Position numbers and translations under genes: made by a program. A DNA stretch of 37,969 nucleotides from positions 1 to 37,969 of IMG/VR virus record IMGVR_UViG_3300048832_000030. One strand, 5' to 3'. The stretch is from a virus. Within the stretch, counting starts at the first letter, position 1. Each line of letters opens with the position of its first letter. This document shows, in pieces, positions 1,649-35,463 of the stretch. The notes beneath the pieces were generated by a model that ran no database searches, had not been told where the DNA came from, and was given only the letters and a program-made list of their open reading frames with translations.

Positions 1649-1731
1649 ACGGTTGTCTCCCGGTGGGGTGCCGGTCGGCGCGGCGGTGAGCAGACCGCGC
1701 CGACCAGTCACCACACACCCGGCCCTGGTAA

Positions 1732-2595: not shown

Positions 2596-2660
2596 GTTGG
2601 ACCCCTTTCCAATTCAAAAGAAATATTGGCTTGAGAAACTCGCTAGCAACGGTGGCGCGG

Positions 2661-3716: not shown

Positions 3717-3732
3717 GGCACCTTACTCCGTA

Positions 3733-4854
3733 TTATCTATCGCCGCTGTCCTGCAACATGGAGTAAAAGGCCTGCTTCAGCACCGGGTCATGGCTCGGGT
3801 CGCCGGTCCACGGGGCCTGATCGTTCAGACCGACCCGCTTCCCGCTGTGCCCAAGTTTTTTCTTCCCCTGCTGCTGAATGCCTTTGGCCCACTGTTGCTG
3901 GCGCTGGGCGGTGAGTTGTTCAGAAAATTCCAGTTGCAGCGCCCTTTTCAAAAGCGTCGGCGTCCAGGCCACCTCCTGGCCGAGACTCCGCGCGCCGCTG
4001 CGCAGCACCTGCGCGGCGGTGAGCAGTTTGTCCCGATTGGCCAGTTGCGACTTGGTGCGCGTGCCATCGGTCTTCCCGAACAGGTCGTCGTGACCCAGGG
4101 TGTCCACGAGCGTCTGCAACTGCTGCTGCTGACTCTCGACGGCCTGCTGCCGGGACTCCGCCAGTTGCGACTCCAGCTCCGCCACCCGCGCGTCAAAGCG
4201 GCGGGAGAGCGTGTCGGAGAGCTTGGCGAACTCCTGAATCAATCCCTCGTCGTACTCGTCGGTGGACAGCGACGGCTCGTAGCCTGTCGTCTCCGACTTG
4301 GTGGGGAGGAAGCGACCGTCCTTGCCGCGCGGCGATTCAGACTCTGCCGGGGGCTGCTGGGTATCGGTCCCTTCCGGTTCGGGAACTCCTTCCTTGGCGC
4401 TGCGATAAAGCACCTGATCGAAGAGCTTGGCATGACGCTCCAGCTCCTCGGGTCCGCTAAGCTCGCGCAGTTGGTCCGCGTCCAAGCCCAGCATGGTGGC
4501 CAGCTCCTGATGTTCTGGGGAGAGCTGCTCCACCCAGTCCTCACCGTCCGGTTGGGCGGCGGCATCGGCTTCCTGGTCGGCAACCATGTGCTCCAGGTCG
4601 CTCGGGAGTTTCGTATTGTCCACGGTGGGCGTCACGTCCACGACCGGGCGCGACTCGATCATGGCCTCCGCTTCCACGGGGCGCTGCGGCACCTTGGCGG
4701 TAGCGGCAGACTTCTTAGCGGCCTTGCCGTTCTTTGCTTTCTCCGGCGGCGCAGCGGCAGCGGCCTGCTGCTTGGCCTCAAAGCGGTCCAGCGCGGCCGT
4801 GGCGGCGGCTACATCCAGTTTGCCTTCCGAGGTTGTCAGTTCACCTGTGGACAT
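3733..4854 (-). CDS. Putative scaffolding protein
   Basis: This acidic, low-complexity protein of 373 residues has Ala/Lys-rich N-terminal segments, long Glu/Gln-rich helices (RFDARVAELESQLAES, QQAVESQQQQ) and a basic C-terminal part. This is the typical makeup of phage scaffolding proteins, which chaperone coat assembly and leave or are degraded before packaging. It lies directly upstream of the putative capsid gene and downstream of the portal gene, the usual order. No protease motif is visible, so it is probably scaffold only. GGAG lies about 10 nt before the ATG. The sequence diverges too fast to assign a family. Confidence 0.65.
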   Translation of the reverse strand: MSTGELTTSEGKLDVAAATAALDRFEAKQQAAAAAPPEKAKNGKAAKKSAATAKVPQRPVEAEAMIESRPVVDVTPTVDNTKLPSDLEHMVADQEADAAAQPDGEDWVEQLSPEHQELATMLGLDADQLRELSGPEELERHAKLFDQVLYRSAKEGVPEPEGTDTQQPPAESESPRGKDGRFLPTKSETTGYEPSLSTDEYDEGLIQEFAKLSDTLSRRFDARVAELESQLAESRQQAVESQQQQLQTLVDTLGHDDLFGKTDGTRTKSQLANRDKLLTAAQVLRSGARSLGQEVAWTPTLLKRALQLEFSEQLTAQRQQQWAKGIQQQGKKKLGHSGKRVGLNDQAPWTGDPSHDPVLKQAFYSMLQDSGDR

Positions 4855-4893
4855 GATTCATTCGCTCCGGTGCTGTGGTGTGTGGGGGTGTGT

Positions 4894-5199
4894 TTAGTGA
4901 TGGCCAGACCAGTCGCCGTACCCGGCGTCGTTATCGCGCAAGTTGCGCAGCTTCATCACCTCGTTGCGGGCCTGCCGCGACTCCAGCACACAATCGCCGC
5001 TGGCGTCGTGGTGCGCGCCGGTGATGCCGTGCCGCGCGTAGAGTTGGTTGAACTCCGCACTCTGCTGCGGGTGACAACCTAGTGCCAGTGACCGCAGCGG
5101 ATGGGCAGCGCTGTACGCCAGGTTCACCAGCGGTGAAGCGAACACGCGGCTGCGGTTCCGGGTGAAGTCCAGGCGTTGGCGACGGTTATACTGGCTCAT
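4894..5199 (-). CDS. Small conserved-position protein between portal and scaffold genes
   Basis: This 101-residue protein starts at an ATG overlapping the portal stop (ATGA), so it is translationally coupled to portal. It is His-, Arg- and Asn-rich (YARHGITGAHHDASGDC). I see no recognisable domain. A position between portal and scaffold suggests a role in head assembly or head-tail joining, but nothing in the sequence confirms this. Confidence 0.6.
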   Translation of the reverse strand: MSQYNRRQRLDFTRNRSRVFASPLVNLAYSAAHPLRSLALGCHPQQSAEFNQLYARHGITGAHHDASGDCVLESRQARNEVMKLRNLRDNDAGYGDWSGHH

Positions 5200-6953
5200 T
5201 GCTGAAGACTCGCTAACTGATCGGGATTCACCTGCCCGCCACCCAGCAGCACCTGCTGCATGACGTGGCTGCGCGAATCGGGGGTCCCGCCGGTCGGCAC
5301 ATTGCGCCGCACGTAATTGCGTGTAGTTTGAGCGGGCATGTGCTGCTGACCGGCGGGACCAGGCCGATCCACCACGGGAGGCTGCTGGAAGGTCACGATG
5401 TGTTCCAGTTCCGGCAGGTGCAGCACCTCCGCGTAATGCCGCACCAGTTCCTGCACGTTGATCGTGCCGCCCGACTCCGAGAGGATCGGGTACAGATTGA
5501 CCAACTGCCCGATGGCCTGCTCCATCTTCTGGGCCTTGGCCTCCGGCGGCTCGTAGTTCATCGAGTAGGGCTCGATATCGAAGTTGTATTGCCAGAAGTC
5601 GCCTTCGCGCTTGTCCGGCGTCCAGTCAATCGACAGCGTGGTGCCCGTGCCGGGGGCCAGTTCGATACTCTGATGAATCGTCATGGCCTTGTCGGCCCAC
5701 AGCAGATGCCCCAGCGAGCCCATCACCTCGGCCACGAAGGTATGGACCCGCTGTTGCATCTTGGCTTCTTTGCGGCTCGATGCGCTGTAGATCAACTGCT
5801 CCTGACCCAGCGTCGGGGCCTGCGGTCCCAGTCCCGCCATCGCCCGCAGGTTCCCCGCCTGCCGGTCGAACAGGTCCAGCACGCCAATCGAGAACGCCAT
5901 GTTGGCCTGGTCCACGCCGCCCTGCTGAATGACGTTGATGCCCTGCGGGTCTTGCACCTTGACCCAGTCACCGTCGTTGACTCGCTTGAGTCGTTCGGCA
6001 TCGTCTACCGCCTCGGGCCGGTAGGTTGGGTTCGCCTTCTGCCGCTTGGCCTGCCGGGCCTGCTTGCGCATCAGGCCGTTGTAGAGCAAGTGCAGCCCCA
6101 TCAGGTTCTGAGCGGGGCTGGTGGGAATCACGTTGTCCGGCACTTCGGCAAAGGACAGGAACTTGTACGGACCACCCTCGGGGCCAGCGTCCACGAGCTT
6201 CAACGGCTTGGCCGTCACATGGCGGCTGAACACGCCGACCTTCTCCAAGTCCGGCAGCCATATGTCCATCAGGTCGCACATCGGCTCGTATTCGTCGTTG
6301 TCCACCATGGACCCGGACGAGATCTGCTGGGCCTGCTCCTCGGCCCGCTCCCACTTGCTCGACGGCGAAAGCTGTTTGACCACGCTCTTGTCGAAGTCCG
6401 GGTCGTCCAACACCGCCGACCACGGCACCCGGTACTCGTCCCACATGAACTTGCAGCGCCGGATGTCCTTGACGCTCATGTCCAGCCCGAAGTCGTCGCT
6501 GCTCACGCGGCAGGTGTACGGTCGGCCGGGATCGGCCCACACGTCATCCAGCAGTTGCAGCGACTGCCACTCGGCCAGGAACACCTTGGCCACGCCCCAG
6601 GAAAAGAAGGCATCCAGCACGATCTGCTGGCACGTCTGGTTGAACTGGATCTCCTTGATGTAGTTGTTTATCGCCTGCTGGAAGCGGTAGCCGAACGCAC
6701 GCAGATGCGTGTGCGGCGTGGTGACCCGCACCCGTGGCAGCCGGGCCGCCAGACCGATGGTGTAGGCGTCGGCGGTGAGGTTCAGGAGATTGACCAGCAC
6801 CTCGAACTGCGCGCCCTGGGCGTTGTAGTAGGAACCCACGAACTCCCGCAGCATCTTGAGCCGGTTGAGCCGGAAGGGCCGCAAGGCTTGGCGGCTGGCG
6901 TCAACGGCGGTGTAGAGACGGTGGAGGTCTTGCTTGCTGCCCAGGTCGATCAC
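5196..6953 (-). CDS. Portal protein
   Basis: This 585-residue protein fits a portal in size and position (directly after the large terminase). Portal proteins form the dodecameric DNA gateway at one capsid vertex. Supporting features are an N-terminal helical segment, a wing-like region, and a central run (KVQDPQGINVIQQGG, then a helix with MAGLGPQAPTLGQEQ) that resembles the clip/crown area of portals in related podo- and siphoviruses. A GTG start at 6953 is preferred because GGAGG lies 9 nt upstream; the ATG at 7007 has no ribosome-binding site. The stop overlaps the next gene by 4 nt. Confidence 0.82.
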   Translation of the reverse strand: MIDLGSKQDLHRLYTAVDASRQALRPFRLNRLKMLREFVGSYYNAQGAQFEVLVNLLNLTADAYTIGLAARLPRVRVTTPHTHLRAFGYRFQQAINNYIKEIQFNQTCQQIVLDAFFSWGVAKVFLAEWQSLQLLDDVWADPGRPYTCRVSSDDFGLDMSVKDIRRCKFMWDEYRVPWSAVLDDPDFDKSVVKQLSPSSKWERAEEQAQQISSGSMVDNDEYEPMCDLMDIWLPDLEKVGVFSRHVTAKPLKLVDAGPEGGPYKFLSFAEVPDNVIPTSPAQNLMGLHLLYNGLMRKQARQAKRQKANPTYRPEAVDDAERLKRVNDGDWVKVQDPQGINVIQQGGVDQANMAFSIGVLDLFDRQAGNLRAMAGLGPQAPTLGQEQLIYSASSRKEAKMQQRVHTFVAEVMGSLGHLLWADKAMTIHQSIELAPGTGTTLSIDWTPDKREGDFWQYNFDIEPYSMNYEPPEAKAQKMEQAIGQLVNLYPILSESGGTINVQELVRHYAEVLHLPELEHIVTFQQPPVVDRPGPAGQQHMPAQTTRNYVRRNVPTGGTPDSRSHVMQQVLLGGGQVNPDQLASLQQ

Positions 6954-7114
6954 CCCGGCGACCCTCCATGAAAAACGGGCTGGCCAGACGCAAATAAAAA
7001 CAGGCAAAGCGGTGAACCGGCACCGGCTTGCCTGTGTTGTGTCTGGCCATTAACGGTTAGCTAGACCGTCAATTTGCCCTATATTTTGTGACTAAGGGTG
7101 GAAATCTTGCCCGT

Positions 7115-9181
7115 CTACCCCCAGTCGTCGCCGCATGTTACCGCTGTGGGGGTGAAAACGTCAAGTCTCCCCTCCTCCCAGGGGTCCGACCCCACGGACA
7201 GGTACAGCTCGTCAAATTCCTTGAGCCTCGCCGCCATGGAGCCGGGCGGGACCATGATGACCTCCTGCTCCGCCCGCTCGGCCAGGTGCGGGTCTTCGGC
7301 ACAGACGTGCCAGGCCAGGCAGGCGGCGATGACCCGGTCACCGTGCGCCCGACCCTTGGAGCCCTCGTCGTCGGTCTTGGTGCTGCCGACGTGGATGATC
7401 TTGCCGTTCTTCCACGAATACTCGTGCAGCTCGTTGAGCATCTCCCGGCTGCGGGGCACGAACGCCCGCTGGGCGATGGCCGCCTGCAAGACCTCGAACA
7501 GCTTGAGCTTCAGGTCGTCGTCCTTCATCCAGAAGCCGTATTTCTGGGTCAGCTTCTTGAACCCCACGACCTCCGTATTGCGCCGCCAGACCTTCTGGTA
7601 GCCAATCGTTTCGAGCATCGTGGTCATGAAGGCGCTGGCGAAGTTGGCCTCGGGGATGACCAACGCCTCGTGGAACCAGCGGGCCAGGGCCACAACCACA
7701 TGCGCGAACCGCTGCTGCGGGTACGTGTTGCTGGTCCACTGGGCCACCTGCTCCCCAGTCAGGCGATTGACCACCACGGCGGCGCTGTTGCTGGAGAAGT
7801 CGTTCCCCGTCCCGGCGCTCACGTCCACGCCGACCACGTACAGCCCAACCGGCACCTGCCCGTTGAGCCCGATGGGCGTCCACAACTGGAACTCGCCATC
7901 CTCCTGGGCCACGACCTGGGGAGCACGCACCTCGGCCTGCTCCATGTCCACCACCAGCCGCCCTTGCACCAGCGGCGGCCGGGCGCACTCGGCAATCGCC
8001 TGCTTGACGATCTCGCCGTTGAAGACCTTCGACTCCGCCCCGCGCGGGTCGCGGTCCAGTTCCTGGGCGATGCCGCGCGGCGTGCTGCCAGGCCGCAGAC
8101 ACTGCTGGTTGTACCACACGTTCCGCAGCCGGTTCTCCACCACGAACCCGCGCCGCTTGAGCTGCTGATGCTGATACCGGATCACCTCCAGATCTCTCGG
8201 CATCAGCCGCCCGTCCCGCTCCGGGTACGCCTCCATGATCTTGCCCATCACGACGCGGTACAGTTGCCGGTTCTGCGTGGGGTTGTCCCGCCAGTCCAGC
8301 ACGATCTTGACCGCGTTGTTGTCCTCGGTGGCCGCCTCGTAATACGCGCCACTGTCGCCCTTGTACGTGCTCACCAGGAACCTGGCGTTAGTCACATGGC
8401 TCGTGCTGTTGAGCGCCGCGTAATCCTCACCCGGATTGAACGTGGCGAATTCATCCAACACGAACACCGTCTTGCGACCACCGCGCGCCACGTCCCCGGT
8501 AGCACTGTAGCCGACGATGTTGGCTCCGTTGGCCGGGTTGACGATGGAGTGCTCCGACAGGTTGCGATGCTTCTGCCAGTCGAACCCCTCCGGCTGCAAC
8601 CAACTCGGCAGCATCTTCAACGCCCAGCAGAATTTCCACAGCAGCGTGTCCGGGTCGCGCGTGCTGTCCACCAGCTTCTCATTGCGCGTCACCAACCCGG
8701 CGCTGAACAGGTCATCCCGCAGCCATCGCCGCAGTAGCACCATCAGATACATCCACGTCGCACCCTGACCACGGCTCTTGTCGATGACGATATCCAGCGG
8801 CTCCTCCCGCGCCTCGGAGTCCGTGATGGCACGGTCCATCGTGATGATGGCTGGGTCCTGGTGCGGCCAGGTGGCTAGCGGTCGTGTCTTCACCAACCCG
8901 CGCGGTTCATAGACAAAACACCCAAAGTTGCAGAAGAACAACACGTCCTCGAAGCACGCTTGCCGCAGATCGCGCTGCAGCCCCTTGTCACCCGCCGCCG
9001 CCTCCAGCAGCGTGATCCGCCACTGAAGATTCTCCATGGGGGTGCGCTTGCGGCAATACTGCGGCGCGTAGTACGGACACTCCGCATACGCACCGGCCGC
9101 CAACGACGCATCGAGCTTCGTCTTGCGCCGCGCGTACCGTTCCTTAACTCCCCGCCGCACCTGCGCCCGACCGTGGGCCAT
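7115..9181 (-). CDS. terL: Terminase large subunit (packaging ATPase-nuclease)
   Basis: This 688-residue protein has both terminase domains. The ATPase part carries a deviant Walker A, KSRGQGAT (135-142), and a Walker B, VFVLDEFA (239-246), with the catalytic Glu. The nuclease part carries the RNase H-like acidic triad: GVDVSAGTGND (451-461), Glu511 in PEANFAS, and HGDRVIA (613-619). It cuts concatemeric DNA and drives it through the portal. GGAGGTG lies just before the ATG. Its first 38 nt overlap the upstream small gene. About 160 nt separate its end from the portal start, with no other gene apparent. Confidence 0.93.
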   Translation of the reverse strand: MAHGRAQVRRGVKERYARRKTKLDASLAAGAYAECPYYAPQYCRKRTPMENLQWRITLLEAAAGDKGLQRDLRQACFEDVLFFCNFGCFVYEPRGLVKTRPLATWPHQDPAIITMDRAITDSEAREEPLDIVIDKSRGQGATWMYLMVLLRRWLRDDLFSAGLVTRNEKLVDSTRDPDTLLWKFCWALKMLPSWLQPEGFDWQKHRNLSEHSIVNPANGANIVGYSATGDVARGGRKTVFVLDEFATFNPGEDYAALNSTSHVTNARFLVSTYKGDSGAYYEAATEDNNAVKIVLDWRDNPTQNRQLYRVVMGKIMEAYPERDGRLMPRDLEVIRYQHQQLKRRGFVVENRLRNVWYNQQCLRPGSTPRGIAQELDRDPRGAESKVFNGEIVKQAIAECARPPLVQGRLVVDMEQAEVRAPQVVAQEDGEFQLWTPIGLNGQVPVGLYVVGVDVSAGTGNDFSSNSAAVVVNRLTGEQVAQWTSNTYPQQRFAHVVVALARWFHEALVIPEANFASAFMTTMLETIGYQKVWRRNTEVVGFKKLTQKYGFWMKDDDLKLKLFEVLQAAIAQRAFVPRSREMLNELHEYSWKNGKIIHVGSTKTDDEGSKGRAHGDRVIAACLAWHVCAEDPHLAERAEQEVIMVPPGSMAARLKEFDELYLSVGSDPWEEGRLDVFTPTAVTCGDDWG

Positions 9182-9383
9182 CTAGCACCTCCAACTGGCT
9201 GACCCGCTGCTCCAACGCAGCCACGTAATCCGCCAGTAAAATCAAATACACATCAGTACCACCCAGACCACAAGAGGTTAGCCCTTGCAAGTCATCATGA
9301 CTTCGCTGCTCCAACTCCAGCCGCAACAACAACTCCGTGCCCGGCGTCTGTATCAGTTCACTGACTCTTCTCATGCTTGCCAT
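9144..9383 (-). CDS. Small coiled-coil protein overlapping the large terminase gene
   Basis: This 79-residue protein has GGAGG at good spacing before the ATG. It overlaps the upstream gene by 26 nt and the large terminase by 38 nt, so it is probably real and translationally coupled. The C-terminal half (LLADYVAALEQRVSQLEVL) is a short amphipathic helix with heptad-like Leu/Val spacing. It could be a terminase accessory or oligomerisation factor. No family is recognised. Confidence 0.55.
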   Translation of the reverse strand: MASMRRVSELIQTPGTELLLRLELEQRSHDDLQGLTSCGLGGTDVYLILLADYVAALEQRVSQLEVLDGPRSGAGAAGS

Positions 9384-9927
9384 CGCTCACCTCCGCTGCC
9401 ACAGTGTTGTCACTACCTGCTGCCACTTTATTGTCACCATCACCCTTCTTCCACGGCGCAGCGTCGTACTTCTCCCGCTGCGCCTTCCTCTCCGCTGCCG
9501 CCACCCGCTTCTCCCGCTTCAGCCGACCCGCCTCCAACTCCTCCGCCCGCTTACCCTCCACCGCCGCGTCCGCATACTTCTTCAAGATCCCCCGCACCTG
9601 ACCCACCAGCTTCCGGTCGTGCTCGTAACCAGCCAACGCCTCCTCCTCCACCTCCCCCAGAAACTTCGGCACCGTCCGCGTAAAGAACTCAATCGGCTTC
9701 TGCGCCGCCACCCGCATGTAACTCCGCGCCACGTCACTCGGGGGCAACTCACCGGCCAACTCCCACCGCAACAGCACACGTCCCCGCTCGTCCTCTTGCA
9801 CCACCTTCTCAAAGTTCCTCGCTACCCACGACACCGCACCCCGCAAGTCCACCTGCTCCCCAACAGCCGGGACCACCACTGACGCCACCTTGTCACCGCC
9901 CCTGTCCGCGACACTCAGGTTCCCCAT
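9358..9927 (-). CDS. Putative small terminase subunit or packaging-associated protein
   Basis: This 189-residue protein is the first gene of the leftward head operon, the standard place for a small terminase, which binds the packaging site and recruits the large subunit. The central part (LPPSDVARSYMRVAAQ, then FFTRTVPKFL) is helical, followed by a highly charged coiled-coil stretch (EELEAGRLKREKRVAAAERK). The C-terminal tail holds an imperfect repeat (DNKVAAG, DNTVAAE). GGGAGGT lies before the ATG. No certain HTH is visible, so the role is inferred from position. Short GTGACAA repeats occur in and just upstream of the gene. Confidence 0.5.
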   Translation of the reverse strand: MGNLSVADRGGDKVASVVVPAVGEQVDLRGAVSWVARNFEKVVQEDERGRVLLRWELAGELPPSDVARSYMRVAAQKPIEFFTRTVPKFLGEVEEEALAGYEHDRKLVGQVRGILKKYADAAVEGKRAEELEAGRLKREKRVAAAERKAQREKYDAAPWKKGDGDNKVAAGSDNTVAAEVSDGKHEKSQ

Positions 9928-10637
9928 CTCTTACCTCCCCCTCTGACACAACCTTGTCACCCCACTCACCTCCGCGCGCACGTACCCGCTGCATCACCCT
10001 AGCCACACTCCCTTGTAACCGGGCCACATGTTGCCACAACCACGCTACACCAGTCAAGTCGTAACAGCCACTACAACCATGGCATACCCAAAATAGCTCA
10101 CGCTACCGCAGGGGCTGCTGCCTAACAACCACAGCCACAATAGGTTACAGAACAGCTATCACAGCCACCAGGGAGGTGGCATATAGGTTTCACGGCACGC
10201 GCGCCAGGAGGCTAATTCGAGTGACTCCCAGCGACCGGGGCCGGGGTCTGGCTCAGATTCCGCTGGGGTGCGCTACCTCTGTTGCTGCTGTACGGCGCTG
10301 CCACACCACAGTGCGGTAGGTGTAAGCTATTGCGCCATAGCCACTTACGCACCACACAATGTAGTACAGTGGGAACGCATAGCACTATATATATGGTGCG
10401 GATGCAGGGGTAGGAGGCAGCAAGGGTGGAAGCAAATGGCATGGCCGTGCGATTAGGTGTGGCGCAGACCAAATATTCTACACCCGCGTGTGTAGCATGT
10501 TGTTCCCCCTGCGTGTGCTACCTGGTGTTGTTGCTGTATCCTGCGTCCGTTGGTTCGGCAGTTGCTTGTGATACTGCCTGCGTAGGTTGGTTTGCTGCGG
10601 CAGCAGAGCAGGTGGGGATCGGTACCTGCTAGGAACC
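9928..10637. other. Non-coding divider between divergent operons
   Basis: No convincing gene is seen in this stretch, which separates the leftward head operon from the rightward accessory operon. Its base composition is unlike the coding regions around it, with T/G-rich runs and an AT-rich TATATATA near 10390. Visible hairpins are 10319-10353 (GGTGTAAGCTAT against ATAG..CTTA..CACC), 10492-10521 (GTAGCA against TGCTAC) and 10607-10630 (AGCAGGT against ACCTGCT). A 33-codon minus-strand reading (9994-9893, MQRVRARGGEW) overlaps the next gene and could be a leader peptide, but support is weak. It plausibly holds divergent promoters. Confidence 0.5.
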
Positions 10638-24933: not shown

Positions 24934-24979
24934 CTCTCGTTCTCCATGTGTTGTAATTGAGTGAATCACACGTGCAGCA

Positions 24980-25000
24980 ATTTACAAGAATGTAAATAGG
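24980..25000. promoter_or_regulatory. Operator 1: ATTTACA..TGTAAAT palindrome
   Basis: ATTTACA-AGAA-TGTAAAT is a perfect 7-bp inverted repeat. An 18 of 21 match occurs in the same orientation at 25286-25306. It overlaps the -10 region of the leftward promoter, the position of a repressor site. Its likely reader is the excisionase-like protein or the HTH protein encoded on either side. Confidence 0.7.
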
Positions 25001-25008
25001 CGTGTCAA
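24981..25008 (-). promoter_or_regulatory. Leftward early promoter
   Basis: The minus strand reads TTGACA (25008-25003), a perfect -35, then 16 nt, then TGTAAA (24986-24981), a 4 of 6 -10. It points into the HTH regulator gene, whose start lies about 48 nt downstream. The -10 is inside operator 1. Confidence 0.65.
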
Positions 25009-25043
25009 GAGAAGGCCGGAAAAAATTCCGGCCGCTCGTTCGC

Positions 25044-26294: not shown

Positions 26295-29200
26295 TCAGTC
26301 GCCGCTGGGCCACGCCATAATCAGCCGCTTCTGCCAGTCCTGCACCGTGGCAGGCTTGAAGCCGCGCTGCAGCAGCCGCTGCGTCAGCGACTCCACCGCC
26401 CGCGACTGCGACACGCCAATCTCCAGCAGCGCCCGCTGCGCACGCTGCATCTGCTCCACCTTGTCGGAGCTGGACTTGGCCGGGTCCACCACACTGGCCG
26501 CCGTCGTCGCCAACCGGCCGATGTGGTCCTGCATCACCTGCTTGACTTCCGGCGGCAAGTCATCCGTTTTCAGCGGATCGGGATACCTCTCCAAAGGCGG
26601 TCGCCCAATGTAATTACGCGCCAGACCCACCATGTACTGCTGCACCTTCCACCGTTCGTTCCGGTCCTCCACGCCGTCGTTCAGCTTGCGCAGATCGGAC
26701 AGCATGTCGGCAATCCGCTCCAGCCGGTAGTTCTCATCCTGCAACTCGGGACTCGACTCGCGGCCCGGAAGTCTGCTGCTGGCATACGCCCGCCGTACCC
26801 GATCCGCCTCCACATAAAACTCGTTGACGCTGCGCGGCTGCTCCTGTCGCAATACGAACCCCTGCACAACGGGAATGTCGGCCGGGGACAGCGGATCGAG
26901 CGACACCGCCGAATGCACCAGCGGCGCGGCCCGGCGGTACATGCCGCCCGTTGCGGAGTCGATGGCGTATTCCAACTTGGCTGGCGACACATTCAGCCAC
27001 TTTCCAATCGCCTTAGCCAGATGTGTGTTGTATTCCTTGGCCTGATCGGCTGGTTGCAGACCCTGCTTGCCCAGTGGCACAATCGGCCTGCCGAACACGT
27101 CTTTGTTGCGGGCGATCTGCCACGCCGTGCTGACGCCCGCCACGTTCAACTCGGGACGGGCATTGTTAATGAACTGAGCTGCCCAGCGGTTCATGGACTC
27201 CGGGTCGCGCCGGTACAGGGAATCCAGAATGGACTCGACACCCGCTCCCAACTGCGCCGCTTCATGACCACGTGGGATGCGGGCAATCGGCTTCCCTGAT
27301 TCATCGGTGAACACGAAGTACCCGTCCAGCCACGACTCTCGCTCCTGATACCAGTCCTCGTCCTTGTGCCACAGCCAATACAGAATCGAAGGAATGGCAC
27401 CGTAGGCCATCCAGCGGGCAAACGTGCGGCCCGGATGGTCCTTGAAGGTGCGCACGGTTTTGTCCAACCCCTCCAGGCGTGCGTTCCAGAACGGAACCAA
27501 CCGATTGACGATACGTCCCACGGTGCCCATCCGGCGGAAATCGACGGTGACTTCGTGCGCGGCATTCAAGGCTTCCACCAGCACCTTGCCGTCAATGTCG
27601 CCGCTGTTGACCATCTGCCGCACTTGGTCCTTGGTGTACCCGTGCTTCTTCCACACACCCACAAACTCAGCCAAGCGCGGACCCGCTTCGGTGACCTGCA
27701 TCACATCCATCGCGGTTTCAATGAACCCGAACTTCTGCTTGCCTGAGACGGCAGACTTAACCGCCCGGCGCACGCTGGGCCGGTCCTGGGCCAGTACGCT
27801 CGACAACATGCCGCCGTACTGCCGATACAGTTTCACAAACGGGTCTTCGGTGTGTCCCTTGATACGCCGCTGAAACTCACTGTAAGCGTAGGTCGCCACC
27901 CACTGCATGGGATCGGCCACGCCGCCGTAGTCGCGCTGCATCAGGTACGTCGGCATGTCACGCATGAAGTTTCGGAACACAAACGTCGGGTTCAGGCCCG
28001 TGGCACCCAGACGAATCATGCGCGTCATGGCACCCAACGTGGCATCCACAAACTTGGGCAATTGGTAGATGCCCATGCCGGTCACGGTTTTGTAGAGGTC
28101 GTCGTTGACGTAGTAGAGCGTGGGCTGACCGTCCCGGTACACCCGCACCACCGGGTCGCCACCCCGCTCAAAGAAGTTGGGACGATACAAGTTGATGAGG
28201 TCCGACCGCCACTTGTTCTTTGTCTCCGCATCCATGTCGGCTTCCATCTGCTCAATCGCCAACGGGTCCATACCCATCGACTCCAGACTCTCCTTCATGG
28301 AATGCCAGATTTCGTCCAGCGAAGCCGTCGTCTTCTGCATGTTGGGCGGCAGTCGCTCAATCCAGCCGTTGGCTCCATGCAGTTCCGCCGCCTCGATCAT
28401 TTCGTTGGTCACGACCTGCGCACTAGCCATCTGGTATACGTGCATGGCTTGCCGTACCGTGGATTGCACGGGGTCGAGAATCTGATAGCCACTGCCCTTG
28501 CGCCGCTTGAACGGCTGAGCCAAGTCCACCATCTGCACGCCACCCACACTGCCTTTGCCTGTCTGGTGTTTCGGCACGACCCGGAACAAGGGCAGGTAGG
28601 TCTGGTACGCATCCGTTATCATCTTGCCGGTTTCCGGTGAGATGCGGCCCGTGTCCACCATCACCTGCACCAGATCGTTATTGAACTTCGTGAGCGCGTC
28701 GGCCGCTTTGGCCCAGTGCCGATTGTGCTGGCCAGCATTGAACACATGCTGCGCGTCGTCTTTGGTGATGCCGGGGTTCTTCCCGGCGGCCCACGACTCC
28801 AGCGCGTGCCTGGCGTAAGCCCAGGTCACCCACGGCAGATACTCCTCGTTGCTGATCGGCTCCAGCGCCTTCCACAGCGAATCGCCAATCCGCTTGACGT
28901 TTCCTTGGTCGTCGAAGGTAAAGACCCCGCTTTCCAAGGCGGTATTGGCCAGGGTCGTGGCGCTCTGGTTCCATGCCACCGCCCGGTCCATGAACGACAT
29001 GCCGGGGTCGGGCCGATACCCACGCGACCGCAGTTCCTTCTCGAACCGATGACCGAAGTGGAACTGGTCCTTCATCGCCTGATAGGCCCGGTGCAGCATG
29101 TAGGGGGCCTGGTCCCGCATCGGCAGCGGCGTCGGCTTGCCGGTGATGGAGATCTGGCCCGCCACCCGTCCCTGCGCGCCAGCAGCTCGCCAGCGGTCAA

Positions 29201-32200
29201 GCCACTGCTTGGACTCGTTGATGCGGTTCTGCCACAGCGGATGGCTGCCCAGCCACTGCTCGAAGTGGGCGTGAAACTGCGGCGAGGCGGTAGCCACGTC
29301 AATTTCGCCCGTCAGGTAGCCCCGCACGTATTCGGCAAACCCTTCCTCCGGCCGCATCTGGTTGGGGAAGTCGTAGTCCAGGGACGCCACCTCGTTGCGG
29401 AGCGCGACTCCGGCACCGCTGAGCACATCCGACCGCTTGTCGAACCCGTGGGCCAGTTCGTGGGTCGCCACGTCCAGGGAGGCTGATTCCTCACCCTTGA
29501 CCCGCACGTTCTCCCACAGCATCTTGTAGACGCCACGCAGCCCCTTGCCACGCAGGCGACCGGCACGAATCGGAATCTTGAAGATGTTCTCCAGGTGCTC
29601 CATCACCTGCCGTGCCCCGATGCGCTCGCCCGTTCCCTGCATCTCGACCGGCATCCCCGCCAGGTCCGCAGAACCCGTGGTCCCGCTGGCTGGCAGCGCC
29701 TGCATGGCCAAATCTTTATCAATGTTCCGCCGCAGGATCAGCATGATCTGCTTTTCCTTCCCGGCGATGGCCTGCGGTGACACCCCCGCTTCGTCGGCCA
29801 GTTGTTGCAGCGTAGCTTTGTGTCCCGAACGGAACCGGGACATGATGAGCCGCTGCTTGTCCACCGGCAACTTGCCGACAGCTTCTCTTACCCGGCTGAC
29901 CACCTCGCCGCGCTCCAGCGTACTGGCCTCCGCCCTCGCCACCGGCTCCGGCGTGTCCTCGGTCATCTGCTTGGGCTGCCGCGACTCCTTGCCGACGTAG
30001 GTCAGCATGCGGTTGCGGATGGCGGTGCGCGCGTAGTGCTCGAACTTCTCGCCCTTGGCCGGGTCAAACGCATCGACCGCCTCGATCAGCGCCTCATTGC
30101 CGACGCTGGTCAGGTCGTCGATGTCTATGTGGCGGTTGGTGCGGGCCAGCTTACCCGCAATGGGTCCGACGAGGTGCAGGTTGTCGAGGATGCGCTGCTC
30201 GCGCTCCTGCGAGGCGGGGGTAGGTGCAGCCGCCACAGGCTGCTCCACCGGCGCTGCGGGGGCTGGCTTCCGAATCGCTGTGGCTTTCGTGGCCATGTCC
30301 AACTGCGCCACCAGCATGTCCCGGTATCGCCTCAACGCATCCTTCTTGCCCGCCACGACTTCTCCGAGAAACGCCGTCCGCTCTGCCGCGGGCATGGCCT
30401 TCACCGCACTGATGTGTGCGTCAATGTCGGCCGTGGTGGTTTGCAGGGAGTCAACCTTGTCCAGCAGCTCGCGGTGCTTGGCCTGCGCATCGTAGGGGGT
30501 CGCCTTCCGCCCGCGACTCTTCTTCGGCGGCGCAGCGGGAGCAGGAGCATATGACACCACTCGTACTGGCACAGTGGCCATCCCAAGTTGCTTTGCTGCG
30601 GCGTAGCGTCCACCGCCATCTGCTATCTCGAATTGGCCACTTGCTGTTTCCTCTACAATAATCGGAGGAAGCGTGCCTGGGTTATTCTTCATGGTGGCCA
30701 GTATGTCTGGACTGGCATAGTCATGCTCTGGGCTAACCACTGACTCGATTGGCAATTGTCGAACATCAGACAATCCGGTTGGTTCCACACCCTCCTGTAA
30801 ATACCGAGACGTGTTCCGTTTCCAAACATTGTCTACTACTGGTGCATCACCACTCCACGCCGCTACGGGTGCCGCCGGGGCGGGAGCGGGGGCCGCTGCC
30901 TTCGCCGCCTTCCCCGGCCTGTCAGTCCGCACGAAGTGGTGCGTGGCGTCACCCGGTCCCACCACCTCCGACGCCGCCACCGTGCCAGCGTCCATCCCGC
31001 TCACCAAGTCCGCGCGGCTAAGCGTCAGCAAGTCCTCCCGGTTGGCGTCCACCAGCATGGCATCGAACTGCTCCCGCGTGACACCCTGCCCCTCGGGCCG
31101 CTGCTGGAAGTCCTCCCACAGCTTGGCAATGAATACCTTGTTGTCCCCGAACCGCCCCTCGGTAGACGCTGCCGCAATCTCGTTGATGGCCGCCGCGAAG
31201 GACGGCAGATCGGGGGCGGGGGCAGCCTCCTGCTCCTGCATCGCCGCCAGCTTCGTCTCCTCCTCGACCACCGACTCCTCGTTGACCGCGTACTCCTCCG
31301 CCGCCGCCTCCACCGCTTCCTTCCGCTTTGGTCCTGGCAGACGCTCAGTGAAACCGATCTCTATGAATTCTTTCCTGCTCGGTGTATCGCCTTTCGGGTG
31401 AGACTTCACCCACTCAGCCGCCTTCCGCTGCGCTGCCAATGAGTCGATGACCGGCTGCGGCACCGACCGCTCCACGGGCGGCGGCTCGTTGATGGCCGCA
31501 CGCTGACGGGCCACGGCGTCCTCGACACGCTGGCCGTACTCCTCGTCAGCAGCCTGCGTCTCTGCCTTGCGCCCCCGCTTATTCACGGCACCAATGCCTA
31601 CCGGAATCGCCTGCATGGCACCCATCGCCATGACCGTCTGCACCACCGTGTCACCGATCACTTGCGGCAACTGCGGCAGCAAGTCTTCGTTGTCAATCCC
31701 GTAGACCTTCTCTGCTATCTGGTGCCCAACCTCGGTAATGATCTCCTCCGGCAACTCCTGCATCGCAGCGATGCCCAGCCGCTTCAGACCCTCAGTGATC
31801 CCTTGCCCGGCAATCTTGCCAGCCTGGGCAAAGTGAGTCTCCATACCACCAAGTCCCAGGCGCTGGAACGTGCCAGCCACGGCTCCCTCAATGGCCCCGC
31901 GCGTCAGGGTGTAGGCTGCCAGCCGCTTACCCGTGGCACCTGCCTCACGCCCCTGGGTCAACGCCTGGTTCATCTCCGTGGTCGCAGCGGCTCCGATGGA
32001 CGAGGCAGCCACCAACCCCGTACCGGCACCTGCCACGCCCGCCGTGCCCATGGCAGCCAAGCCAAGCGGGACCGTCTCGATGGAACCTCGATAGCCACGA
32101 TGCAGAATCGCAGGCATGGTCCGTTCTTCGTCCTGCTCCGAAGCCGCTTGCCGAATCGCATCCCCGATGACGTTGTAAGAGTCGGCATCCAGGTCGTCGC

Positions 32201-32429
32201 CAGTCAAGCGATTGACCATGGACGCCACCGTGGTGCCCAGCCCCAGAAACGCAGCCTTGGTGGAGGGGAAGTAGGATTCCGCCAGCGACTTGCGCGCATA
32301 CTCCAGCGCCACCTGCTTCTGGATTCCCATTTCGACCTGCCGCTTGTTCGCCTGGGGGAACTTATCCCAGGCGGTGGCAGTCTCTGGTGCGTCACTCAAA
32401 GCTGTAAAGCCATCCCACTTATCGCTCAT
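26295..32429 (-). CDS. Giant polyvalent ejection protein: ParB-like, sigma-70-like, zincin and LPD38-like domains
   Basis: This 2044-residue protein is built of recognisable domains. Residues 100-285 are Ala/Gly-rich hydrophobic helices. Residues 553-626 are ParB-like (PPIIVE, ADGGGRYAAAKQLG). Residues 741-902 are sigma-70-like: region 2 has DDLTSVGNEALIEAVDAFDP and KFEHYARTAIRNRM; region 4 has KLPVDKQRLIMSRF and LQQLADEAGVSPQAI. Residues 988-1033 hold a zincin motif, HELAH with a later EEGFAEY. Residues 1400-1720 resemble LPD38 (NPTFVFRNFMRDMPTY). The design fits the polyvalent proteins that phages inject with their DNA. It ends tail-to-tail 5 bp from the integrase gene. Confidence 0.85.
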   Translation of the reverse strand: MSDKWDGFTALSDAPETATAWDKFPQANKRQVEMGIQKQVALEYARKSLAESYFPSTKAAFLGLGTTVASMVNRLTGDDLDADSYNVIGDAIRQAASEQDEERTMPAILHRGYRGSIETVPLGLAAMGTAGVAGAGTGLVAASSIGAAATTEMNQALTQGREAGATGKRLAAYTLTRGAIEGAVAGTFQRLGLGGMETHFAQAGKIAGQGITEGLKRLGIAAMQELPEEIITEVGHQIAEKVYGIDNEDLLPQLPQVIGDTVVQTVMAMGAMQAIPVGIGAVNKRGRKAETQAADEEYGQRVEDAVARQRAAINEPPPVERSVPQPVIDSLAAQRKAAEWVKSHPKGDTPSRKEFIEIGFTERLPGPKRKEAVEAAAEEYAVNEESVVEEETKLAAMQEQEAAPAPDLPSFAAAINEIAAASTEGRFGDNKVFIAKLWEDFQQRPEGQGVTREQFDAMLVDANREDLLTLSRADLVSGMDAGTVAASEVVGPGDATHHFVRTDRPGKAAKAAAPAPAPAAPVAAWSGDAPVVDNVWKRNTSRYLQEGVEPTGLSDVRQLPIESVVSPEHDYASPDILATMKNNPGTLPPIIVEETASGQFEIADGGGRYAAAKQLGMATVPVRVVSYAPAPAAPPKKSRGRKATPYDAQAKHRELLDKVDSLQTTTADIDAHISAVKAMPAAERTAFLGEVVAGKKDALRRYRDMLVAQLDMATKATAIRKPAPAAPVEQPVAAAPTPASQEREQRILDNLHLVGPIAGKLARTNRHIDIDDLTSVGNEALIEAVDAFDPAKGEKFEHYARTAIRNRMLTYVGKESRQPKQMTEDTPEPVARAEASTLERGEVVSRVREAVGKLPVDKQRLIMSRFRSGHKATLQQLADEAGVSPQAIAGKEKQIMLILRRNIDKDLAMQALPASGTTGSADLAGMPVEMQGTGERIGARQVMEHLENIFKIPIRAGRLRGKGLRGVYKMLWENVRVKGEESASLDVATHELAHGFDKRSDVLSGAGVALRNEVASLDYDFPNQMRPEEGFAEYVRGYLTGEIDVATASPQFHAHFEQWLGSHPLWQNRINESKQWLDRWRAAGAQGRVAGQISITGKPTPLPMRDQAPYMLHRAYQAMKDQFHFGHRFEKELRSRGYRPDPGMSFMDRAVAWNQSATTLANTALESGVFTFDDQGNVKRIGDSLWKALEPISNEEYLPWVTWAYARHALESWAAGKNPGITKDDAQHVFNAGQHNRHWAKAADALTKFNNDLVQVMVDTGRISPETGKMITDAYQTYLPLFRVVPKHQTGKGSVGGVQMVDLAQPFKRRKGSGYQILDPVQSTVRQAMHVYQMASAQVVTNEMIEAAELHGANGWIERLPPNMQKTTASLDEIWHSMKESLESMGMDPLAIEQMEADMDAETKNKWRSDLINLYRPNFFERGGDPVVRVYRDGQPTLYYVNDDLYKTVTGMGIYQLPKFVDATLGAMTRMIRLGATGLNPTFVFRNFMRDMPTYLMQRDYGGVADPMQWVATYAYSEFQRRIKGHTEDPFVKLYRQYGGMLSSVLAQDRPSVRRAVKSAVSGKQKFGFIETAMDVMQVTEAGPRLAEFVGVWKKHGYTKDQVRQMVNSGDIDGKVLVEALNAAHEVTVDFRRMGTVGRIVNRLVPFWNARLEGLDKTVRTFKDHPGRTFARWMAYGAIPSILYWLWHKDEDWYQERESWLDGYFVFTDESGKPIARIPRGHEAAQLGAGVESILDSLYRRDPESMNRWAAQFINNARPELNVAGVSTAWQIARNKDVFGRPIVPLGKQGLQPADQAKEYNTHLAKAIGKWLNVSPAKLEYAIDSATGGMYRRAAPLVHSAVSLDPLSPADIPVVQGFVLRQEQPRSVNEFYVEADRVRRAYASSRLPGRESSPELQDENYRLERIADMLSDLRKLNDGVEDRNERWKVQQYMVGLARNYIGRPPLERYPDPLKTDDLPPEVKQVMQDHIGRLATTAASVVDPAKSSSDKVEQMQRAQRALLEIGVSQSRAVESLTQRLLQRGFKPATVQDWQKRLIMAWPSGD

Positions 32430-33598
32430 GGCACCTGCCTTATGACACCTTTGTCGTCGATGAATAGCGTACCGGACGGCAGTTTGGTAGCTTCTTCCGG
32501 CGTACTGGCACGCGGCAGATACTGAGTCGCCAACTCCGCCGCACGAGGACTCGGTGCGTTGACAACCGTGGGTGCCGCTGCGCCGGGTGCCTCTGCCGCT
32601 GCCACAGGCGTCGGCGTTACCGGGACCGCCGCGCGCGGGCTGCCGGTCATGCCCGGCTGCTCGGCGTAGCCAGCCGTACCAACCTTACCACCAGCCTCTA
32701 CCGGGGCCGCTGGTGCCGCCTCGCCGCTGGTGGGCGCGCCAGCCGCCGGAGGCTGAAAGTATTTCTCGACAGCCGCACGACGCTCCTCCAACGCCTTGAC
32801 TGCCTCCTCCACGGTCTCGTACTTCTGCTTCACCACCATGTTCTCGCCATCCTTCTCCGTCACCGTCTCGGCCATCATCTTGTTGACATCGTCCAGCATC
32901 TTCTGCTGGTCCTTCTGCGCCTGCGTGGCCGCCGCCGTCGCCGTCTTGTCCTCCATCTCGACGATGCCCTTGCCCGGCACCTCCTGGTAACGCTTGCCAG
33001 TCTTCGGGTCGGTGTAGATCGACGACTCCACTCGCTCAGCCAGAGCCGGACCTACCATCGGCGGCCGAGGTGACGGCAGAATCTTGTTCTGCTGCTCCTG
33101 CAACTGGACAATCGCCCGCTCCTGGTCCTCCGGGGCCAGCGGCTCGCCACGGCTGGTCATCCCCTTGCCGCGAATCGAGTCGATCTCCGCTTGCAGCGAG
33201 GTCCACTCCTTGTCGTGCCGGTCGGTCCATTCGTGCGTACCAGCATCCAGCCCCCGCCACGCCGTGGTGGCCTCGTCCCTGGCAATGTCCCGCATCCGCG
33301 TCTCGCCACGCCACCGCAGGTCTTCCATGCGCTCATCGGCCCGCAGTTTGTCCCGCTCCACGTCCCGCAGCAGACCCTCTTCAAACATCGCCCGGCGATC
33401 AACGCGGTCGGCCTCCCGGTTCTCCCAAGCCAACTTCCGGTCTGCCTCGCGTTCCTGCGCGCCCCACAGCAGTCGATTGTGCTGTATCTGCTGCTCCAAC
33501 AATTCCCGGCGACGGCGACCCTTCGCAGTCCCCACGCCCGTCGCGTAAGCCGCTAACCCAGCCGCCCCTATAGGTTGATAATCAATACGGATTCCCAT
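32426..33598 (-). CDS. Coiled-coil virion/ejection protein
   Basis: This 390-residue protein overlaps the giant gene by 4 nt. The N-terminal 170 residues are highly charged helices (RRRRELLEQQIQHNRLLWGA, DRVDRRAMFEEGLLRDVERD), likely a long coiled coil. The C-terminal part is an Ala/Pro-rich linker ending in a compact segment (PSGTLFIDDKGVIRQVP). It probably is an internal virion or ejection protein that partners the giant protein. GAGGGG precedes the ATG. Confidence 0.65.
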   Translation of the reverse strand: MGIRIDYQPIGAAGLAAYATGVGTAKGRRRRELLEQQIQHNRLLWGAQEREADRKLAWENREADRVDRRAMFEEGLLRDVERDKLRADERMEDLRWRGETRMRDIARDEATTAWRGLDAGTHEWTDRHDKEWTSLQAEIDSIRGKGMTSRGEPLAPEDQERAIVQLQEQQNKILPSPRPPMVGPALAERVESSIYTDPKTGKRYQEVPGKGIVEMEDKTATAAATQAQKDQQKMLDDVNKMMAETVTEKDGENMVVKQKYETVEEAVKALEERRAAVEKYFQPPAAGAPTSGEAAPAAPVEAGGKVGTAGYAEQPGMTGSPRAAVPVTPTPVAAAEAPGAAAPTVVNAPSPRAAELATQYLPRASTPEEATKLPSGTLFIDDKGVIRQVP

Positions 33599-33610: not shown

Positions 33611-34507
33611 TTAGCCAATGCCGATCTTGCGGCCTAGTTTGTTTAGCTTCTGTTTCCGCTTTCCGCACCCGCACGGCTTACCCAAGAGCTTCGTCACCCG
33701 CTGCTCTGTAATCCCTACGCTGCTCAATACCTTTTCCACGTAGTCGCCCAAGCCCATCTTCGGCTGCGGAACCACCTGCCCCGGCCCACGCCCCGCTTCC
33801 CACATCGCATAGTAGTCCGGCCGCGTCTGGCACAGCCGGTGCCAGTGCGGCGTCTTGTGGCATTGGTGCCGCTCGCACCAGCCGGGTTGTTCACATACGC
33901 AACCAGCAGTGGCTGCTAACTGCATATAATCAGCGTGACAATACTGCCGGATAGCCATTAACTCAGGCTGACGTGCCACGGGCTTCTGGAAGGACTTATT
34001 CTCCGTGATATCTGGCAACTCTACATCCAACCAGGTCGCAATTTCTTGATGTACACAGTCGCTATAGCGAAACACCTGTGTGGACTCGTGACAGTAGGTC
34101 TGCAAGAAGCCTCCTGGGTTGCAAAGCAGCCGTAATTTCATTGCGTCTTGTACAACTTGCTCAAACGACAATTGAGCTGTGCGATACACCCAATCCGCAA
34201 ACCAAGCGGGCCATTCCTGGATACCCGGATCATCTGCACTGGCCTGCGACCATCTTTGTAGCCATCCATAATGAGACCTGAAAACACCCACGGGGTCACG
34301 CAGTATGGTAAATGTCTGGTAGCCGGGATATTGCTCCATTGCCAATCTGGCTGAGCAGTGCATACCCGCCGGAATGTCCGGCGGAAAGCTCAGACGATTA
34401 TCCCATAAGGCATCTGTAAATCTTGCTGTCAAAGCCAGACTGAGAGACGTGCCGCCAGTGCGTGGCATGTGGATAAAGATCAACTTCTTACTGGGTATGA
34501 TGACCAT
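33611..34507 (-). CDS. Sulfotransferase-family protein with C-terminal Cys/His module
   Basis: This is a 298-residue protein. Residues 11-22 (FIHMPRTGGTSL) match the 5'-phosphosulfate binding loop, and residues 67-80 (TILRDPVGVFRSHY) match the 3'-phosphate binding motif with its Arg and Ser. Such enzymes move sulfate from PAPS to sugars or proteins. Residues 203-244 (CVCEQPGWCERH, then WEAGRGPGQ) are a Cys/His-rich module also found at the start of the next protein upstream. ATG 34507 overlaps the previous stop (TAATG). Sulfation of a surface sugar is one possible role. Confidence 0.78.
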   Translation of the reverse strand: MVIIPSKKLIFIHMPRTGGTSLSLALTARFTDALWDNRLSFPPDIPAGMHCSARLAMEQYPGYQTFTILRDPVGVFRSHYGWLQRWSQASADDPGIQEWPAWFADWVYRTAQLSFEQVVQDAMKLRLLCNPGGFLQTYCHESTQVFRYSDCVHQEIATWLDVELPDITENKSFQKPVARQPELMAIRQYCHADYMQLAATAGCVCEQPGWCERHQCHKTPHWHRLCQTRPDYYAMWEAGRGPGQVVPQPKMGLGDYVEKVLSSVGITEQRVTKLLGKPCGCGKRKQKLNKLGRKIGIG

Positions 34508-35463
34508 TATTCCATATAACCCTGACTTGGGCACAACACCTTGATGCCGTACCTTCTCATGCGAACAGCAATGTCAGGTTCCGACTCGATGAATGTCACG
34601 CATTCGATGCGGTGGCATATCCGCGCCTTCCAGGTGGCCACCTTGTCTGGGTTCCAGCGATCATGCTCTGATCCAGACCACATGATTAGTCGATTGTATT
34701 GCATGCGCCATTTCTCCAGCCACGCAACAGTAGTTGCTCGCTCGGATTCTGGGCGAGCTGTAATAATGGCCTGACAGCGGTCATTGTGGATGGGATACAA
34801 TGGCTGATGTTGGTAAGGAGGGTTTTTACAGACAACGCCATCCATATCCACACCCCACGCATGAATCCATGGTGCATTGAAAATATTCCACTCCAGTAGG
34901 TGAGGGTACGGCAATACCTCAGAATACAGCACGGGAAGCGACAGATTTTTGCGGATATAACACACCGCCAATGCAGCATTGGGCGCAATCATGCCACTCG
35001 ATAGATAACGCCTGAATGTATAGCCACCGTGCATGGTATCGTCGATGTAGGCAGGAATGCCTGTTCTCGGCTGAAGCGCACCCCAACCTGTGCGAGACCC
35101 ACCACCTAAAGGTATCTCCCCGTCTTGCCTCAAAACATACAGCGGAAGATGTAGTAATGTAGCAATAATGCTGGCTGGAATTAGTCCGCTGCGGGGAATA
35201 GCTACGATGCGTGACACATTGTCTGGTAATCGTGAAGCCAACTGAACTGCCGCAGCTGCTAATTCGTGACACTTTACGAACCGCACTCGATCTCTCATAA
35301 GATGAACCGGCGTTAGTTCTGCCAAACCTTGTCCTGGCCCACGACCCGCTTCCCATGCTGCAAAGTATTTCGCATCCGTCTGGCATAGCTCGAACCAGCG
35401 CTGCGTCTTGTTGACGTTGTGCTTCTGGCAGTATCCAGGGCCTTTACACACGCATCCGGTCAT
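34507..35463 (-). CDS. Cys/His module fused to a phosphoribosyltransferase and a HAD-like domain
   Basis: This is a 318-residue protein. Residues 4-45 are the Cys/His module (CVCKGPGYCQKH, WEAGRGPGQ). Residues 60-180 look like a PRTase fold: IVAIPRSGLIPA, then AYIDDTMHGG as the PRPP-binding loop. Residues 203-310 look HAD-like: WGVDMDGVV (D206, D208), ITARPESER and a late ESEPDIA. A PRTase fused to a phosphatase suggests nucleotide salvage or base modification. I know no family with this exact order. GAGG precedes the ATG. Confidence 0.75.
   Translation of the reverse strand: MTGCVCKGPGYCQKHNVNKTQRWFELCQTDAKYFAAWEAGRGPGQGLAELTPVHLMRDRVRFVKCHELAAAAVQLASRLPDNVSRIVAIPRSGLIPASIIATLLHLPLYVLRQDGEIPLGGGSRTGWGALQPRTGIPAYIDDTMHGGYTFRRYLSSGMIAPNAALAVCYIRKNLSLPVLYSEVLPYPHLLEWNIFNAPWIHAWGVDMDGVVCKNPPYQHQPLYPIHNDRCQAIITARPESERATTVAWLEKWRMQYNRLIMWSGSEHDRWNPDKVATWKARICHRIECVTFIESEPDIAVRMRRYGIKVLCPSQGYME

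Follow-up and report, generated by a model that had tools for sequence, protein, structure and literature searches.

A two-domain sigma-70 factor embedded in a giant, predicted ejection protein of a podovirus-like phage

Introduction

Textbook phages rely on the sigma factor of the host for their first transcripts; the known alternatives are to inject a whole RNA polymerase, as N4 and the giant phages do, or to inject an enzyme that modifies the polymerase of the host, as T4 does with Alt. The locus described here raises the question of what a sigma factor might be doing in the middle of a giant phage protein. It lies in a 37,969-nucleotide stretch of viral DNA (IMG/VR record IMGVR_UViG_3300048832_000030; hereafter, the window), a linear fragment in which a reading frame runs off the right end and a gene is unfinished at the left end. 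Its central feature is a single reading frame of 2044 codons (26295..32429, minus strand) that, by Pfam, PHROGs, and NCBIfam, encodes a polyvalent protein. The main text of Iyer et al. (2017; PMC5512222) describes such proteins as combining from two to fifteen domains with differing activities in each polypeptide, in a phage late-gene setting, and predicts that they are transferred and jump-start transcription.

Results

The sequence-only reading of this locus had placed a sigma region 2 followed by a sigma region 4 in residues 741 to 902 of the giant protein. All of the motifs that it quoted are present, and the span delimited by profiles, predicted fold, and PDB matches is 741 to 903 (29721..30209, minus strand), without region 3. 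Region 2 occupies residues 755 to 817 (29979..30167, minus strand), where Pfam PF04542 and, structurally, a SigE domain match; region 4 occupies residues 852 to 900 (29730..29876, minus strand), where TIGR02937 and an RpoH C-terminal model match and the Pfam region 4 model scores weakly. The profile search that the same reading had offered as a check bore it out: TIGR02937 spans both regions (residues 742 to 901) with an E value of 5e-18 and 65.3 bits (cut-off, 42.9), and Sigma70_r2 (PF04542) exceeds the Pfam gathering score, with E values of 2.6e-11 in the whole 2044-residue protein and 4e-12 in the segment. Sigma70_r4 taken alone falls under its gathering score (E of 0.055 in the whole protein and 0.007 in the segment). 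The C-terminal half of the segment has an independent match to an RpoH model (E of 2e-9, segment search), phrog_351, annotated as an RNA polymerase sigma factor, matches the segment with an E value of 1.5e-14, and a phmmer search of the PDB returned only sigma factors among the matches listed, the best of them FliA (1.6e-7).

The nearest NCBIfam models to region 2 are of the SigE, SigK, and FliA types, and the Pfam search gave no match in the segment to the ECF-type model PF07638. With region 2 followed by region 4, the segment has the layout of ECF sigma factors, in which region 3 is likewise missing; no anti-sigma factor was noticed. No other sigma region 2 is encoded in the window, so that residues 741 to 903 are its sole copy, and a single-sequence scan returned no close relatives of the segment. 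A plasmid search with the segment returned one match, a stand-alone sporulation SigE gene. Two apparent leads were set aside. The 928 columns of phrog_351 at first hinted at a known giant-protein family, and the profile says nothing on fusions; the matches to the segment labeled as phage that we opened were stand-alone genes of bacterial type on unverified fecal contigs. Several of these contigs, deposited as 'Bacteriophage sp.' (MT835xxx to MT840xxx), carry SigE-like and FliA/WhiG-like sigma genes and may be bacterial DNA.

An AlphaFold2 model of the segment, built from an alignment of 13 sequences, has a mean pLDDT of 86 and shows two helical domains with a disordered linker of about 15 to 20 residues between them (segment residues 99 to 113 in the model). 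The modeled sigma2 domain superimposes on the N-terminal domain of SigE with a Z score of 14.0 and 1.5 Å over 80 residues (38% identity) and on region 2 of sigma-70 (1sig) with 1.3 Å over 74 residues, and the structure matches listed from the PDB are sigma factors. Structure prediction, a further check named by the earlier reading, thus agrees with it, with sigma2 fitting SigE at 1.5 Å and sigma4 modeled as a helical domain. A chance match or an artefact is ruled out by several independent profiles, the fold, the unbroken reading frame, and a phage-like GC3 over the sigma segment (0.8 to 0.95). The assignment is far beyond chance, and we conclude that residues 741 to 903 are a sigma-70 region 2 and region 4.

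The remainder of the protein explains why it was called polyvalent: the ParB-like, zincin, and LPD domains that had been proposed were all found, and ParB-like, sigma, zincin, and LPD38 domains lie in one open reading frame. Its ATG overlaps the stop codon of an upstream gene of 390 codons (32426..33598, minus strand), which occupies the place of a 398-codon gene in L151, a syntenic relative on a 43.4-kb contig. An Ala/Gly-rich N-terminal domain (residues 1 to 300; 31530..32429, minus strand) is shared with L151 at 36% over residues 3 to 270, and Pfam detects no N-terminal SLT transglycosylase in the protein; the relative L038 has one. Residues about 420 to 920 (29670..31172, minus strand) are missing in L151. 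They begin with a small block recognized from sequence and alignment, 'FGDNKVFIAKLW...LSRADLV' (residues 420 to 500; 30930..31172, minus strand), which is followed by an Ala/Pro linker (residues 511 to 524; 30858..30899, minus strand) ahead of the ParB-like domain (residues about 554 to 640; 30510..30770, minus strand). Pfam places ParB_N below threshold at residues 581 to 624, and several PHROGs ParB-like families back the assignment. Further Ala/Pro linkers occur at residues 628 to 635 and, immediately ahead of the sigma domain, at residues 722 to 739 (30213..30266, minus strand). An assembly chimera is unlikely, as the junctions are Ala/Pro linkers within one frame. The ParB-like core (residues 541 to 600; 30630-30809, minus strand) has a GC content of 0.49 and a GC3 of 0.45, against about 0.63 and about 0.8 for the gene; this low GC3 suggests that the core may have been imported recently.

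Downstream of the sigma domain, residues 937 to 1080 (29190..29621, minus strand) form a predicted zincin-type metallopeptidase, delimited by an alignment of 22 relatives and a structural model. The two histidines and the glutamate of its zinc-binding motif HELAH (residues 990 to 994; 29448..29462, minus strand) and the glutamate presumed to be the third ligand, in the motif EGFAE (residues 1029 to 1033; 29331-29345, minus strand), are invariant in the 22 sequences. The model (pLDDT of 81.5, pTM of 0.73) resembles PPEP-1 and ATLF-like zinc peptidases with a Z score of about 7.4; Foldseek E values are about 0.06 to 0.3, and Foldseek gave no match to the model under an E value of 0.05. Because these fold scores are moderate, the assignment rests on motif and fold together, and by both the domain after sigma is predicted to be a zincin with an intact catalytic motif. 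PPEP enzymes cleave at Pro-Pro, and we suggest by analogy that the zincin may cleave the Ala/Pro linkers of its own protein.

The C-terminal scaffold (residues 1161 to 1916; 26682..28949, minus strand) is common to phage internal virion or ejection proteins and includes an LPD38 domain (residues 1692 to 1852; 26874..27356, minus strand; Pfam PF18857, E of 5.1e-21). It is about 25% identical to proteins of the pelagiphages HTVC034P, HTVC204P, Lederberg, and HTVC010P and of the podovirus MW202898. The full-length homologues stand in the gene order tail tubular A and B, acetyltransferase, 'internal virion protein', another large gene, homologue, and tail fiber, and in HTVC034P, HTVC204P, Lederberg, and MW202898 the homologue occupies the place of T7 gp16. 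The window's own tail genes are missing because the window is a fragment, and they would lie off its ends. L151 supplies the order in a closer setting: its terminase (32%, 1e-71), portal (31%, 3e-81), and capsid-size gene (28%, 2e-47) match those of the window and are arranged as terminase, portal, capsid, an 815-residue tail-size frame, frames of 1093 and 398 residues, and the giant gene, after which Sak4 and SSB genes follow as they do in the window. From this gene order, the giant gene closes the structural cassette. Taking position and homology together, we infer that the giant protein is probably an ejection protein that a podovirus-like phage packages in its virion.

Other genes of the window merit a record of their own. 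Just upstream of the ejection genes, two adjacent minus-strand genes, one polynucleotide-kinase-like and one sulfotransferase-like (34507-35463 and 33611-34534), share a Cys/His-rich module, C.C..PGyC..H...K....W..LCQ....Y...WEaGrGPGQ. At the left end, a gene that runs off the contig (3-1025, minus strand) encodes the papain-like motif NQGNEGS and, immediately after it, a Hint domain of the intein type (CFPAGTMIRMGDG...; Hint_2/Vint/Hom_end_hint, E of about 1e-6), so that the intein sits where a phage cysteine protease would have its catalytic cysteine.

Comparison with relatives identifies the ParB-like and sigma domains as a cargo insert, because the 1604-residue protein of L151 aligns with residues 3 to 270 (36%) and 926 to 2025 (34%) and so keeps both flanks and the zincin without the ParB-like and sigma domains of residues about 420 to 920. 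Three scans of viral contigs and one genome scan gathered the LPD38/zincin relatives. In the alignment, L147 to L149 have neither a ParB-like nor a sigma domain. L146 and L093 are 44% identical from residue 937 on and, as read from sequence, hold a methyltransferase and a helicase in the cargo slot; L014 holds a methyltransferase there. On LPD38 scaffolds, L016 (1-7521) carries a methylase-helicase pair, which Pfam types as a strawberry-notch helicase, L072 (5435-12325) a zeta-toxin-like kinase, and L038 (6302-12343) the N-terminal SLT transglycosylase. Across these relatives, then, the scaffold stays the same and what fills the slot varies. With our own HMM, no second sigma-bearing LPD38 relative was found among the giant frames of the loci fetched; PF04542 matched in none of 13 viral records of LPD38 relatives and TIGR02937 in none of 50 records.

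A scan for sigma region 2, with candidates limited to those sharing short exact motifs, uncovered parallel fusions on other scaffolds. Of the polyvalent proteins searched for the same fusion, another check named by the earlier reading, L280, which has an ART domain, carries it, and fusions occur in the MuF proteins of L264 and L266, but none of the LPD38 relatives examined has one. The MuF fusion (L264/L266:4666-6867) is a 734-residue protein with Phage_Mu_F at residues 245 to 349, Sigma70_r2 at 443 to 512 (E of 2.5e-18), and Sigma70_r4 at 544 to 596 (E of 5.6e-12); repeats of NVFCPTGEGGG (pattern NVFCPTG.GGG) flank the sigma domain, and a portal gene (phrog_146, E of 1.9e-48) lies directly upstream. 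MuF proteins belong to the phage head, and their fusion to effectors is known (PMC7302621; main text of PMC5512222). The L264 and L266 contigs come from two different samples and differ at 6 nucleotides over about 8 kb, and this near-identity makes an assembly chimera unlikely. Counted from the first ATG, the L280 protein (265-9969) has 3185 residues or more, within an open frame of 3235 that runs off the contig, in a genome that encodes a terminase. Its domains are methyltransferase-like, Sigma70_r2 (E of 2.5e-13), Sigma70_r4 (E of 1.9e-9), and ART-PolyVal, with TIGR02937 at an E value of 2.9e-25, and its modules, sigma included, are separated by the repeated motifs HPRGGGG.F and PGDTK.ENG..YVLNQNHRW. 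L286 (9841-19395) likewise encodes a polyvalent protein longer than 3100 residues, in which sigma-70, methyltransferase-like, and ADP-ribosyltransferase domains occur together.

In a tree, the sigma domains of the three fusions fall in separate places; at least two changes are forced, and three lie within the bootstrap range; several branches are long, including that of the window sigma, whose placement is unsure. Capture looks independent because the three do not group, and by these comparisons unrelated virion-type proteins have likely captured a sigma factor more than once. A long 'sigma' frame in L268 (5740-7551) was rejected as a fusion, as its extra length looks like an intein. This phage sigma is of the RpoD type, and the apparent intein-like insert lies inside region 2, between FSTYA and TWWVRQ.

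Discussion

What, then, might a sigma factor do within such a protein? The reading that we favor, at a probability of roughly one half, is that an injected ejection protein delivers the sigma factor, possibly freed by the zincin, and so redirects host RNA polymerase to phage promoters. We infer each of its steps: packaging, entry, release, polymerase binding, promoter choice, and timing. The giant protein would be packaged in the virion, its N-terminal domain and LPD38 C-terminal scaffold holding swappable cargo between them, which in this phage would be the ParB-like domain and the two-domain sigma factor. At infection it would enter the cell together with the DNA, and the sigma part would either stay tethered or be released when the neighboring zincin cleaves the Ala/Pro linkers. 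The sigma part would then bind host core RNA polymerase and bring it to phage promoters ahead of all phage gene expression, the host-polymerase counterpart of the whole RNA polymerase that N4 injects. Recurrence of the fusion is the strongest sign that it acts in delivery. Tentatively, we extend the argument to a proposition somewhat less likely to hold than not, namely, that phages have repeatedly made injected or head proteins into vehicles for sigma factors and that reprogramming of the host polymerase at entry is a general infection strategy.

Against delivery stand the rarity of sigma in this scaffold, the weak Pfam match of region 4, and the absence of region 3. The promoters of the window bear on the question as well. 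The best host-type match, a sigma-70-type TTGACA-18-TAAATT (25008-24979, minus strand), lies directly ahead of the replication operon, in a scan that overall was not above chance; with such a match, early genes could perhaps do without a sigma factor brought in by the virion. A terminator-like hairpin precedes the match, both within 24979-25033 (minus strand). No phage-specific promoter motif was identified in the window, in which intergenic sequence is too scant for motif discovery, and repeats at 11.3 to 12.9 kb were rejected as phage promoters because they look like ribosome-binding-site and start contexts.

An injected sigma factor might instead act mainly by competition, taking up the core RNA polymerase of the host and so shutting down host transcription, without steering the enzyme to phage promoters. 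SigN of Bacillus subtilis, a sigma factor borne on a plasmid or prophage, is toxic by outcompeting SigA for core polymerase (PMC10601692), and the main text of PMC5512222 describes many further cargo domains of polyvalent proteins as aimed at the host. A pure core competitor, however, has no need of region 4 with its DNA-binding helix-turn-helix, which all three fusions keep, and with only a few copies injected, thousands of polymerases could hardly be titrated; we consider this explanation unlikely. The placement of the sigma domain in an ejection-type protein also accords with a tether, by which host RNA polymerase would be held to the entering genome and transcription would pull the DNA in, as in T7 and N4; the injected polymerase of N4 may serve DNA entry too (PMC4496689). 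Tethering would need promoter choice as well and thus overlaps delivery, and the MuF and ART fusions are built on other scaffolds, which leaves it quite unlikely as an account of its own.

Of the phage sigma factors known, the majority act once they have been expressed and control middle or late genes (PMC4496689, PMC4331800), and the giant protein, made late, could similarly serve late phage genes in the cell that produces it, whether or not it is packaged afterward. That is very doubtful: its gene ends the structural cassette, so that the factor would come too late for the genes that it should switch on, a 2044-residue fusion is an odd vehicle, and in the MuF case, too, the carrier is a structural protein. 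That the domain is a relic, a mere DNA- or protein-binding module with no role in transcription, as its long branch, weak region 4 score, missing region 3, and single occurrence in the LPD38 scaffold might suggest, is equally doubtful when the region 2 core motifs are intact, the identity to SigE is 38% over 80 residues at 1.5 Å, ECF factors also dispense with region 3, and regions 2 and 4 were captured together recurrently.

If delivery is true, a virion-carried sigma factor would add a third way to obtain first transcripts, at far lower cost, and it would explain how phages could start transcription in hosts whose promoters they do not match. If the zincin frees the sigma factor, the peptidases that are common in polyvalent proteins would acquire a function.

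Polyvalent proteins and the start of transcription by injected enzymes were already known, and the fusion to a sigma factor is new in the literature that we searched. The sequence-only reading knew of no described fusion with a region 2 plus 4 sigma, and we came upon no description of a virion-borne or fused sigma factor either in the searchable literature, taken as that outside subscription papers, preprints, and supplements; the word sigma is absent from the main text of PMC5512222. A single sigma-factor peptide was reported from the podophage SU10 (PMC4281155), in a preparation that was not gradient-purified; it proves nothing on packaging. The stand-alone phage sigma factors (SPO1 gp28 and gp34, phiEco32 gp36, and those of Bacillus phages and cyanophages) share the sigma-70 family and regions 2 and 4 with the domain described here, but each is encoded by a small gene of its own and made during infection, outside virion-type proteins.

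The scaffold has its own set of counterparts. Proteins like T7 gp16 (HTVC010P, HTVC034P, MW202898) share the C-terminal scaffold at about 25% and are likewise encoded behind the genes for tail tubular and internal virion proteins, whereas their full-length forms are about 1250 residues long and have no sigma, ParB-like, or zincin insert of such size. DarB-like antirestriction proteins (L093/L146 and a homologue in Vibrio phage VvAW1) have the same zincin and LPD38 C-terminal half (44% in L146) and the same slot, filled with methylase and SNF2/strawberry-notch helicase cargo instead of sigma. The polyvalent proteins in the main text of PMC5512222 are alike in their multidomain chain, LPD38, ParB-like, and zincin domains, late-gene setting, and cargo that varies among relatives; what differs is the full region 2 plus 4 sigma as cargo. 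A functional parallel is the virion RNA polymerase of N4, itself counted among the polyvalent proteins, which is injected and whose N-terminal and C-terminal parts function in injection and encapsidation (unpublished data cited in PMC4496689). Both proteins carry transcription cargo midway in a giant chain, injected in N4 and predicted to be so here, and no single-subunit RNA polymerase domain appears among the Pfam, PHROGs, and NCBIfam matches of the 2044-residue protein. N4 brings a whole single-subunit polymerase, whereas the phage described here would bring only a specificity factor for the enzyme of its host.
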